Part shown: piece by piece, positions 2,057 to 4,913 of the stretch | Layout: each line of letters opens with the position of its first letter | Position numbering within the stretch: the stretch's first letter is position 1 | Position numbers and translations under genes: made by a program | Assembly (NCBI GenBank): GCA_029865325.1 | Contig: JAOUHF010000007.1 | Location: 1 to 42,867 of the forward strand | DNA: 42,867 bases | Reading direction: 5' to 3' | Source: Thermoleophilia bacterium | GTDB taxonomy: Bacteria; Actinomycetota; Thermoleophilia; Gaiellales; Gaiellaceae | The notes under the pieces: model-generated | The model's database searches: none | Told to the model about the DNA's origin: nothing | Seen by the model: the letters and a program-made list of their open reading frames with translations, nothing else

Positions 2057-3967
2057 ATGAAGGTCGTCCTCCCCGACTCCTCCGAGCTCGAGCTCCCCGA
2101 CGGCGCCACGGGGATCGAGGCCGCGCGCGCGATCGGCCCGAAGCTCGCCGAGCAGGCCGTGCTCGTTCGTGTCGACGATATGACGCGCGACGTTCGCCTG
2201 CCGCTCATGGACGGTGAGCGGATCCAGTTCCTCACCACTCGCGACACGGAAGACCCGGACGCGCTCCACGTGCTCCGCCACTCGACCGCCCACTTGCTCG
2301 CCGAGGCGGTCATGCGACTGTACCCCGGGGTCAAGATCGCCATCGGCCCGCCGATCGCGGACGGCTTCTACTACGACTTCGAGTTCCCGGAGCCGATCTC
2401 GGAGGACGACCTGCAGGCCATCGAGGACGAGATTCGTCGTGAGATCGAAGAGGGTCGCGCCTGGACGCGCGAGGAGCTCTCCCTGGACGAAGCCGTCAGT
2501 CGCTTCGAGGCAGAGTCTCAGCCCTACAAGGTCGAGCTCGCGCACGACGCCGAGGGCGCAATCTCCCTCTATACCCAAGGCGCGTTCACGGATCTCTGCC
2601 GTGGGCCGCACTTGCAAGATGCCTCACCTATCAAGGCCCTCAAGCTGATGAGCCTCGCGGGCGCCTACTGGCGTGGCGACGAGCGCAACACGCAGCTGAC
2701 CCGGATCTACGGCACGGCCTTCTACTCGCAGGCCGACCTCGACGCGCATCTCGAGCGGCTCGAGCAGGCCAAGGCCCGCGATCACCGTCGCATCGGCCGT
2801 CAGCTCGACCTCTTCCACTTCGACGAGCACTCACCGGGATCGCCTCTCTGGCACCCCAAGGGGATGGTGATCTACAGCCAGCTCGAAGCGGTGCGCCGCC
2901 GCGAGAACAAGCGACGCGGCTATCTCGAAGTCAAGACCCCGTTGATCTACGACAAGGCGCTCTGGATCACGTCGGGGCACTGGGAGAAGTTCCGGGACAA
3001 CATGTTCCTCATCCCGGGCGACACGGACGAGCAGACGTACGGGATCAAGCCGATGAACTGCCCGGGTCACATGCTGCTCTACGGGAGCCAGCTCCGCAGC
3101 TACCGCGATCTCCCCCTTCGGTACGCAGAGGCCGCCCCGCTCCACCGCAACGAGCTCGCAGGGACGCTCCACGGCCTCACCCGCGTTCGCTACGTGACCC
3201 AGGACGATGCTCACATCTTCTGCACCGAAGAGCAGGTGCCGGCCGAGGTCGATGCTGTCATCGACTACGTCCGGTATCTCTACGGCCTCTTCGGCATGGA
3301 CCCGCATGCCGAGCTCTCGACTCGGCCCGAGAACAGGCTCGGTACCGACGAGCAGTGGGACAAGGCCGAAGGAGCGCTCCGAAACGCTCTCGACCGGCAC
3401 GGGATGCGCTACGTCATCGCCGAGGGCGAGGGCACGTTCTACGGACCGAAGATCGACCTGCACATGACGGACGTTCTCGGCCGTTCCTGGCAGATGGGGA
3501 CGATTCAGTACGACATGCAGATGACGGCTCGGTTCGGGCTGACGTACATGGGCACCGACAACGCCGAGCACATGCCGATCGTCATCCACCGCGCCCTCTT
3601 CGGCTCGTTCGAGCGTTTCATCGGGATCCTCGTCGAGCACTACGCGGGCGACTTCCCCTTCTGGCTCGCGCCGATTCAAGCACGGGTGCTCCCGGTAGGA
3701 CTCGGGCACCAGGAGGCTGCGCGAGCGCTCGGGGATCGCCTCGACGCGGAAGGCTTTCGCGTTGACGTCGACGACCGCGACGAGACGCTCGGAAGGCGGA
3801 TTCGCGACGCCGAGCTGGAGAAGATCCCGTTCGTGGTCGTCTACGGCGACCGAGAGTCGGAGGACTCGCTCGCCGTGCGGGAGCGGGGCGCCGGTCAGTC
3901 CGCGCTGTCGCTCGACGAGCTGCTCGCTGCGCTCGGCGCTCTCGCTGCCGAAGCGGATCCCCGCTAG
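2057..3967 (+). CDS. thrS: threonyl-tRNA synthetase
   Basis: Class II aminoacyl-tRNA synthetase that charges tRNA-Thr. The 636-residue protein has the full bacterial domain set: an N-terminal TGS domain (about 1-61), the second additional editing domain with HSTAH and CRGPH motifs that clear mischarged Ser-tRNA-Thr, the catalytic core with motif 2, and a C-terminal anticodon-binding domain. The catalytic zinc ligands are in MNCPGHM (Cys), DDAHIFC (His) and IVIHRALFGSFERF (His). The ATG at 2057 has no Shine-Dalgarno sequence but sits 7 bases after a TATCCT box. It heads the translation cluster thrS-infC-rpmI-rplT-(methylase) and then, beyond a minus-strand block, pheST. Confidence 0.98.
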   Translation: MKVVLPDSSELELPDGATGIEAARAIGPKLAEQAVLVRVDDMTRDVRLPLMDGERIQFLTTRDTEDPDALHVLRHSTAHLLAEAVMRLYPGVKIAIGPPIADGFYYDFEFPEPISEDDLQAIEDEIRREIEEGRAWTREELSLDEAVSRFEAESQPYKVELAHDAEGAISLYTQGAFTDLCRGPHLQDASPIKALKLMSLAGAYWRGDERNTQLTRIYGTAFYSQADLDAHLERLEQAKARDHRRIGRQLDLFHFDEHSPGSPLWHPKGMVIYSQLEAVRRRENKRRGYLEVKTPLIYDKALWITSGHWEKFRDNMFLIPGDTDEQTYGIKPMNCPGHMLLYGSQLRSYRDLPLRYAEAAPLHRNELAGTLHGLTRVRYVTQDDAHIFCTEEQVPAEVDAVIDYVRYLYGLFGMDPHAELSTRPENRLGTDEQWDKAEGALRNALDRHGMRYVIAEGEGTFYGPKIDLHMTDVLGRSWQMGTIQYDMQMTARFGLTYMGTDNAEHMPIVIHRALFGSFERFIGILVEHYAGDFPFWLAPIQARVLPVGLGHQEAARALGDRLDAEGFRVDVDDRDETLGRRIRDAELEKIPFVVVYGDRESEDSLAVRERGAGQSALSLDELLAALGALAAEADPR

Positions 3968-3971
3968 GTGG

Positions 3972-3977
3972 TACGAT
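3972..3977 (+). promoter_or_regulatory. candidate -10 box of the infC operon
   Basis: TACGAT sits 5 bases after the thrS stop codon. A start site 6-7 bases downstream would fall at about 3984, exactly at the base of the first leader hairpin, so the structured leader would start with the transcript. The -35 region is not recognisable. Confidence 0.45.
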
Positions 3978-3983
3978 CCCCGG

Positions 3984-4130
3984 CCTGCAAGCAGGAGCTC
4001 ATCGCTTCCTCACCTCCCGGGCACGACTCGCGGGGGTTCAACCGAGCCGGTGTCGTCGTGCCGGGGTTGGATGGGAATCCGAGCCGCTGCTTGCAGCGGT
4101 TTTGTCGTTTACAAGGAGGAAGCTGAGAGC
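3984..4130 (+). promoter_or_regulatory. structured infC-rpmI-rplT leader with probable attenuator
   Basis: The gap between thrS and infC holds several RNA structures. CCTGCAAGCAGG (3984-3995) can form a small hairpin. A long imperfect stem pairs GGCACGAC (4020-4027) with GTCGTGCC (4055-4062), extended by CCC/GGG beyond a G-G mismatch. A terminator-like hairpin follows at 4084-4099. CTGCAAGCAG (3985-3994) is a perfect 10-base complement of CTGCTTGCAG (4087-4096) in the terminator, giving mutually exclusive folds. Leaders of this operon are controlled by ribosomal protein L20 in Bacillus and Escherichia; control by L20 here is inferred from position only. A Shine-Dalgarno AAGGAGGA lies at 4113-4120. 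Confidence 0.6.
4084..4103 (+). terminator. intrinsic terminator-like hairpin in the infC leader
   Basis: CCGCTG (4084-4089) pairs with CAGCGG (4094-4099) around a CTTG tetraloop and is followed directly by TTTT (4100-4103). The stem can be lengthened by weak G-T and A-T pairs. Its place, just before the infC Shine-Dalgarno sequence, suits an attenuator rather than a simple end for thrS. The T-run is short, so termination strength is uncertain. Confidence 0.55.
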
Positions 4131-4144
4131 TTGATGAAGGGCCT

Positions 4145-4837
4145 TTGAGACCACGCCGCCGCCGGCCCTCGATGGACCGGGTCGTTCCGCGCAAGCGGGA
4201 CGAGCGAATCAACGAGGAGATCCGTGTGCCAAACGTCCGCCTGGTAGACGAGAACGGCGGGCAGGTGGGGATCACCCCGACGAAGGAAGCGCTGGAGTTC
4301 GCGTACGGGAAGGGCCTCGACCTCGTCGAGGTCGCTGCCGGCGCAGATCCGCCCGTTGCACGGGTCATGGACTACTCGAAGTACCGCTACGAGCAGGAGC
4401 AGCGCGCGAAGCAGGCCCGCAAGCATCAGCTCCAGATCCACGTCAAGGAGATCAAGCTCAGACCAAAGATCGGAATCCACGACTACGAGACCAAGAAAGG
4501 GCACGTCGTGCGCTTTCTCGGGCAGCGAGCCAAGGTCAAGGTCACGATCATGTTCCGGGGACGCGAGACGTTGCACCCGGAGCGGGGTCGAGATCTGCTC
4601 ATGCGGCTCGCTGAGGACGTCAAGGAACTCGGTTGGATCGAGCAGCAGCCAATCCTCGACGGTCGCAACATGGTCATGGTTCTCGGCCCGAACAAGAACG
4701 TAGGAGCGAAGACAGATGCCAAAGATGAAGACGTCGAAGGGCGCGAAGAAGCGCTTCAAGCTGACGGGGACAGGGAAGCTCCTGCGCAGGCACGGGATGA
4801 GGAGCCACAACCTCGAGAAGAAGTCGTCGAAGCGTAG
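4145..4837 (+). CDS. infC: translation initiation factor IF-3 with acidic tail overlapping rpmI
   Basis: IF-3 binds the 30S subunit, prevents early 50S joining and proof-reads start codons. The N-domain (RINEEIRVPNVRLVDENGGQ), the linker rich in Lys/Arg and the C-domain (KEIKLRPKIGIHDYETK, then MFRGRE) are complete. The start is uncertain: TTG at 4145, used here, or ATG at 4172, both in frame. A tiny frame MKGL (4134-4148) stands 14 bases after the AAGGAGGA ribosome site and its TGA overlaps the TTG, which would allow coupled reinitiation. The unusual part is the 3' end: the frame runs 122 bases into rpmI and adds a 44-residue tail with 16 Asp/Glu (from about [10 protein letters not shown] to VVEA). 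Many actinobacterial IF-3 proteins have acidic tails; encoding one inside rpmI is odd. Confidence 0.95.
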   Translation: MRPRRRRPSMDRVVPRKRDERINEEIRVPNVRLVDENGGQVGITPTKEALEFAYGKGLDLVEVAAGADPPVARVMDYSKYRYEQEQRAKQARKHQLQIHVKEIKLRPKIGIHDYETKKGHVVRFLGQRAKVKVTIMFRGRETLHPERGRDLLMRLAEDVKELGWIEQQPILDGRNMVMVLGPNKNVGAKTDAKDEDVEGREEALQADGDREAPAQARDEEPQPREEVVEA

Positions 4838-4913
4838 ACGCGGCTTTCGCAAGATGGAAGGCGTCGCTGCGAGCGACGCGAAGTCCGTGAAGAAGCTCCT
4901 CAGAGGGGGCTGA
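4716..4913 (+). CDS. rpmI: 50S ribosomal protein L35
   Basis: A 65-residue basic protein of the large subunit with the typical N-terminus [20 protein letters not shown] and the conserved [12 protein letters not shown] segment. The ATG at 4716 has GGAG (4703-4706) at a good distance, and this site lies inside infC. The first 122 bases of the gene (62% of it) are also read as the end of infC in another frame. The rplT start follows 5 bases after the stop, so co-translation is likely. Confidence 0.97.

Follow-up and report, generated by a model that had tools for sequence, protein, structure and literature searches.

The window, the whole stretch of 42,867 nucleotides analysed here, comes from an assembly of 2.6 Mb in 192 contigs. 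It carries thrS (2057-3967), a gap of 177 bases, and then infC, rpmI and rplT. The genes and the signals that frame the gap are the following.

3969..3977, + strand: extended -10 promoter TGG-TACGAT (TGGTACGAT), just 3' of the thrS stop and conserved in relatives
4113..4119, + strand: Shine-Dalgarno AAGGAGG, read from the sequence
4134..4148, + strand: four-codon upstream ORF, ATG AAG GGC CTT TGA, its stop overlapping the infC TTG start
4145..4837, + strand: infC (IF3), TTG start, Pfam IF3_N and IF3_C
4716..4913, + strand: rpmI (L35), Pfam PF01632
4919..5305, + strand: rplT (L20), the proposed effector, Pfam PF00453

The closest named records for the IF3 of the window are Actinobacteria and Thermoleophilia MAGs. 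infC and rpmI overlap by 122 bases (4716-4837), and IF3 gains a C-terminal extension that is coded across the start of rpmI.

The leader and its promoter

An IF3 search covered 129 genomes of the same order, and the regions upstream of infC were then compared. A strongly conserved leader lies there in most of them. Usable for the tests were 82 leaders from 33 genera at the level of the order, 72 of them (28 genera) forming the sample for family f1; many of these genomes are incomplete MAGs, and the genera are related to one another and so are not independent samples. The layout is CUG..AAGCAGGRGC-loop-GUUCCUCACC-P2-GGUUCAACCGAG..GACGAGGAaaCGGGCC-terminator, with AAGNAG and UCACC invariant across the leader set (82 genomes, 33 genera). 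In family f2 the leader is mostly lost, and is kept in genomes G015 and G016.

The promoter is conserved along with the leader. TANNNT is found 16-19 nt upstream of AAGNAG in all 77 of 77 leaders, as against 1 of 77 in each of three control intervals farther upstream, and 63 of the 77 have the extended -10 form TGNTANNNT. A promoter at 3969-3977 places the predicted transcript start near 3984, the exact site being an estimate. This lies upstream of 4084, where the terminator core begins, and the segment 3985-3994 would therefore be the extreme 5' end of the transcript.

Several relatives depart from this layout. In two loci of genus g5 (L141 and L167) the aptamer is gone and the terminator hairpin follows almost directly after the promoter, an apparent natural deletion; a sister genome (G032, locus L124) has retained the leader. 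Two loci of genus g32 (L098, L100) have the leader core and a degenerate terminator hairpin. In L020 there are two matches resembling L20_leader (1952-2052 and 2723-2903) within about 1 kb upstream of a single infC, possibly a duplication.

Helices, terminator and antiterminator

The elements of the leader itself are listed here.

3985..3994, + strand: CUGCAAGCAG, 5' partner of a 10-bp helix, including the invariant AAGNAG; outer antiterminator strand
3993..4010, + strand: helix P1 (3993-3997/4006-4010) with apical loop 3998-4005, proposed to form one half of the site for L20, from covariation counts
3997..4010, + strand: antiterminator strand 1, made up of the P1 loop and 3' strand; in nascent folds its partner is 4073-4084; from swap z and folds
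4012..4037, + strand: helix P2 (ACCUCC.. / ..GGGGGU), with P1 the proposed L20-binding junction, from swap z and two-sided changes
4016..4066, + strand: long stem in the predicted fold of the window, without conservation
4073..4084, + strand: antiterminator strand 2 (GGGAA..GAGC), continuing into the terminator 5' arm, from swap z and folds
4081..4109, + strand: intrinsic terminator CCGCUG-CUUG-CAGCGG (core 4084-4099) with U-rich tail, from a scan and arm co-evolution

The terminator sits between the leader core and the first gene, with CCGCTGCTTGCAGCGG at 4084-4099 followed by TTTTGTCGTT. A terminator scan returned the hairpin as 4081-4102 with 9 pairs. The same scan gave 3 terminator-like sites where shuffles gave 1.5 (sd 1.3), and on its own the hairpin is therefore not significant. 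Comparison among relatives is more telling. P1, P2 and the terminator were recovered unprompted by RNAalifold from an alignment of 56 leaders (A1). In these three helices 92.9% of cells are paired, compared with 87.9 (sd 0.4) in shuffles, and there are 60 two-sided changes compared with 24.5; none of 500 shuffles reached these values on paired cells and two-sided changes. P2 has two-sided changes at six of its nine pairs. In P1 97% of cells are paired, with 13 two-sided changes at one pair.

An alignment-free partner-swap test was also used, in which the binding of a leader's own two segments is compared with that of segments exchanged between genera. The terminator arms co-evolve (z -5.6 in f1, -8.2 in all families), as do the arms of P2 (z -6.0 in f1). 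P1 alone gives only -1.35 (f1), a value that near-invariant arms would lead one to expect. Two arbitrary pairings used as negative controls in f1 gave z +0.4.

The same test identifies an antiterminator. The P1 loop and 3' strand against the pre-terminator region plus terminator 5' arm give z -5.2 in f1 and -5.9 in all families. This inner pairing is usually GCGGaCCCGUUCCUC / GAGGaAACGGGCCGC, with the lineage variants CCCA/UGGG, UCCG/CGGA and GUCUC/GAGAC, and GCCCG/CGGGC in family f4. Its register possibly slides between lineages, blunting counts made on fixed alignment columns. In nascent folds the terminator 5' arm is captured upstream in 67 of the 72 f1 leaders, and a helix with the P1 strand of at least 6 pairs forms in 68 of 72. 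Once the whole hairpin is present in the RNA, the minimum-energy fold includes the terminator in only three of 72 leaders, which is why read-through is the predicted default state in these models. Termination would then need something to bind, as in the logic of B. subtilis. When leaders were refolded, an antiterminator of at least 9 pairs formed at a frequency of 0.88 with native halves and 0.78 with the downstream half swapped between genera. Since fold energies take no account of kinetics, and much of this structure forms with swapped halves too, the case for competing folds rests mainly on the swap test. Co-evolving pairing and nascent folds, both established by computation, give an antiterminator predicted to compete with the terminator.

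The sequence-only reading had described two exclusive folds that attenuate infC-rpmI-rplT, and the co-evolution of terminator and antiterminator, together with the folds, supports it. It had assigned the antiterminator to a perfect 10-base complement between 3985-3994 and 4087-4096, opposite a hairpin at 4084-4099. The complement (CTGCAAGCAG and CTGCTTGCAG) and the hairpin are exactly as described. A competing fold also stands; the 10-bp helix as sole antiterminator does not. Covariation is seen in helices of the element, among them P2, the terminator arms and the inner antiterminator, and the start is predicted upstream of 4084, so that neither observation named beforehand as refuting the sequence-only reading occurred. 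The 10-bp helix itself has a swap z of -0.07 (f1), and 78.2% of its cells are paired both before and after shuffling. Each half-site is nearly a palindrome (CTGC..GCAG), which by itself accounts for part of the complementarity. The inner pairs GCAG/CUGC show little or no variation, most of it to G-U, and the outer pairs are broken in about half of the leaders. As far as the comparison of leaders goes, the evolutionarily supported antiterminator is mainly the inner one, and the 10-bp helix is its outer extension. In many leaders the nascent folds stack the outer helix outside the inner antiterminator. The window is predicted to form such a composite stem (3985-3994/4087-4096, 3997-4000/4081-4084 and 4006-4010/4073-4077), with a fold of -65.0 kcal/mol versus -57.5 when the terminator is forced; the inner part has 4+5 pairs and is weak, and most of the strength comes from the outer helix.

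An attenuator of independent actinobacterial origin, with its antiterminator confined to the 10-bp helix and the partners joined by the stem at 4016-4066, can draw on several observations. Long-range perfect 10-mer complements occur in 0.26% of mononucleotide shuffles of the window's leader, the helix is in the minimum-energy fold, and at least 4 of its pairs form in 54 of 72 nascent and 67 of 72 full folds. Against this, the helix is perfect in 8 of the 72 f1 leaders and does not covary, and the L20-leader motif accounts for AAGNAG. The stem is indeed in the minimum-energy fold of the window, but as a conserved joiner of the partners it fails: the closest relative (L082) lacks it, and it is incompatible with P2, which is conserved. 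Together with the homology to RF00558 described below, these points make such an origin very improbable.

Control of translation is a second alternative, in which GCUUCCUC (4004-4011) would pair with GAGGAAGC (4116-4123) and mask the Shine-Dalgarno, the hairpin being incidental. These 8 bp are perfect in the window and belong to the minimum-energy fold of the whole leader. However, the P1 strand against the Shine-Dalgarno region gives z +1.2 (f1) and -0.5 (all), that is, no co-evolution, and the terminator arms and antiterminator do co-evolve. We regard this alternative as highly improbable.

Relation to L20_leader and the effector

The core of the window's leader, AAGNAG-hairpin-CUCACC and then another hairpin that ends in GG, makes the P1/P2 junction. 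The Rfam family L20_leader (RF00558) gave no match to the window at E<=10, and Rfam searched at gathering threshold gave none in the window and 18 loci. Relatives bridge the distance. Two genomes of the same order (G119 and G123) have full-length matches to RF00558 before infC at 42.4 and 35.1 bits, below the gathering threshold of 58.7 bits; weaker matches occur elsewhere, including one of 27.3 bits in a genome of the same family (L096). A genome from another family of the phylum (G133), at 65.6 bits, is the only one to pass the cut-off. A covariance model built from A1 (R1) and RF00558 match at identical coordinates in this genome and in three others (G231, G251, G193). Judged by these sequence and model matches, the leader of the window is a divergent L20_leader, homologous to the Firmicutes type and a divergent branch of a known kind. 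Because of this homology it is not the separate actinobacterial solution that had been suggested.

Within the phylum, R1 matched 37 of 396 genomes and a refined model (R2) 64 of 296 genomes and 52 of 192 genera, nearly always once per genome; E-values from both models are approximate, and the training set of R2 includes some of the matches that it recovers. When 40 loci from the two models were checked, 37 proved to be upstream of infC in the same orientation, and two more (L204, L207) come directly before rpmI-rplT. The named genera Nocardiopsis, Glycomyces and Herbidospora have weaker R1 scores. One R1 match (L213) is probably false, with neither IF3 nor L20 nearby.

Genus g187 offers a natural experiment on the identity of the ligand. 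In its two loci (L204, L207) the leader stands directly before rpmI, followed by rplT. infC is elsewhere, about 3 Mb away in G452 and on a separate contig in G287, and R2 detects no leader before it. In this genus the leader thus tracks rpmI-rplT, not infC. The arrangement points to L20 as the ligand that would bind and, with the homology to L20_leader, bears out the earlier suggestion that L20 is the likely effector.

A likeness to ribosomal RNA was also seen. 23S rRNA is absent from the window's own assembly, and the comparison used two relatives (G055, G061).

4032..4046, + strand: GGGGGUUCAACCGAG, resembling the 23S rRNA stretch GGGGCUCAAGCCGAG

The region around GGGGCUCAAGCCGAG is the most leader-like of 294 segments of 50 nt in a same-genus 23S, a second region being nearly equal. 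We place this stretch close to helices 40-41, the region to which L20 binds. At about 2217-2242 of the G055 23S (L188), CUGCGAAGCGGGAGCGCCAGCUUCC is very similar to the 5' half seen in some leaders (CUGCAAGCAGGAGCGAACAGCUUCC), a likeness that may be chance.

IF3 itself as the effector has in its favour that infC is the first gene and that E. coli IF3 controls infC (review PMC10931766); the homology of the leader to L20_leader, and g187, where infC lies apart without the leader that rpmI-rplT keeps, render it barely credible. An ordinary constitutive thrS terminator without a switch, which the good hairpin in the thrS-infC gap might suggest, is scarcely tenable given the conserved promoter upstream of the hairpin, the conserved P1/P2 and the competing, co-evolving antiterminator.

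Proposed mechanism and known systems

The conserved promoter, P1, P2 and terminator, the co-evolving inner antiterminator, the homology and the linkage to rpmI-rplT together lead to the attenuator reading: infC-rpmI-rplT is very likely controlled by a transcription attenuator of the L20_leader type that would respond to L20. The operon's own extended -10 promoter would start the transcript near 3984. With no free L20, 3997-4010 (the P1 loop and 3' strand) would pair with the pre-terminator region and the terminator 5' arm. CUGCAAGCAG would extend this pairing, so that the whole partner region is 4073-4096, and with the composite antiterminator formed RNA polymerase would read through. When L20 exceeds rRNA it would bind the P1/P2 junction (3989-4046), which includes the 23S-like GGGGGUUCAACCGAG, and hold P1 closed. 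The antiterminator strand would then be unavailable, the hairpin 4084-4099 would form and transcription would stop before infC.

A second layer of control may involve the upstream ORF. In infC leaders of the order this ORF has the form (A/G)TG-NNN-NNN-NNN-TGA, with TTG or GTG as the infC start and ATG only in f4. The TGA overlaps the infC start in 100 of 100 leaders, and in 77 an ATG or GTG codon stands at -4. The ORF has 7 codons in f2 and 8 to 10 in f3, and is lost in L120 and L127. Alternatively, GGUGA could be the infC Shine-Dalgarno. No paper joining infC, an upstream ORF and reinitiation was found in the literature. A wider and rather doubtful proposal is that an ancient, Actinomycetota-wide L20 leader has a composite antiterminator that takes in the 5' end of the RNA, and that a Gaiellales-like upstream ORF adds a layer tuning reinitiated IF3 apart from L20. 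If true, IF3 reinitiation linked to this ORF would be tunable separately from L20.

In E. coli, too, L20 exerts feedback on rpmI-rplT, and there is a likeness to 23S rRNA (PMC10931766). There translation is blocked by way of a pseudoknot and a hairpin, and infC is not controlled by L20, in contrast to the design proposed for the window. In Mycobacterium tuberculosis the infC leader is abundant and 326 nt long, with a UTR/CDS ratio of 2.6 to 4.9 (Arnvig 2011, PMC3207917). For this 5' UTR the authors drew a parallel with the L20 system of B. subtilis, and where they draw it they give neither a structure nor L20_leader homology (PMC3207917).

The nearest known system is L20_leader of B. subtilis infC-rpmI-rplT, where L20 is described as binding the H1/H2 junction and stabilising a terminator (PMC6097659). 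The position before infC, the AAGNAG-P1-CUCACC-P2 core, the terminator just before infC and the terminator-versus-antiterminator design are shared, and same-order relatives match the whole Rfam model. In contrast, the leader of the window is GC-rich and unrecognised by that model, its P1 loop is not ACCC, its GGUUCAACCGAG motif is longer and its antiterminator reaches the 5' end of the RNA. The present analysis contributes the homology, the promoter, an antiterminator that co-evolves and the range of genomes in which the element occurs. The regulator is described in PMC6097659 as narrowly distributed to Firmicutes, yet it seems to be present in many families of Actinomycetota, and it is therefore either older than thought or has been transferred. 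For a phylum in which control of the infC operon is little described, this offers an account that can be tested.
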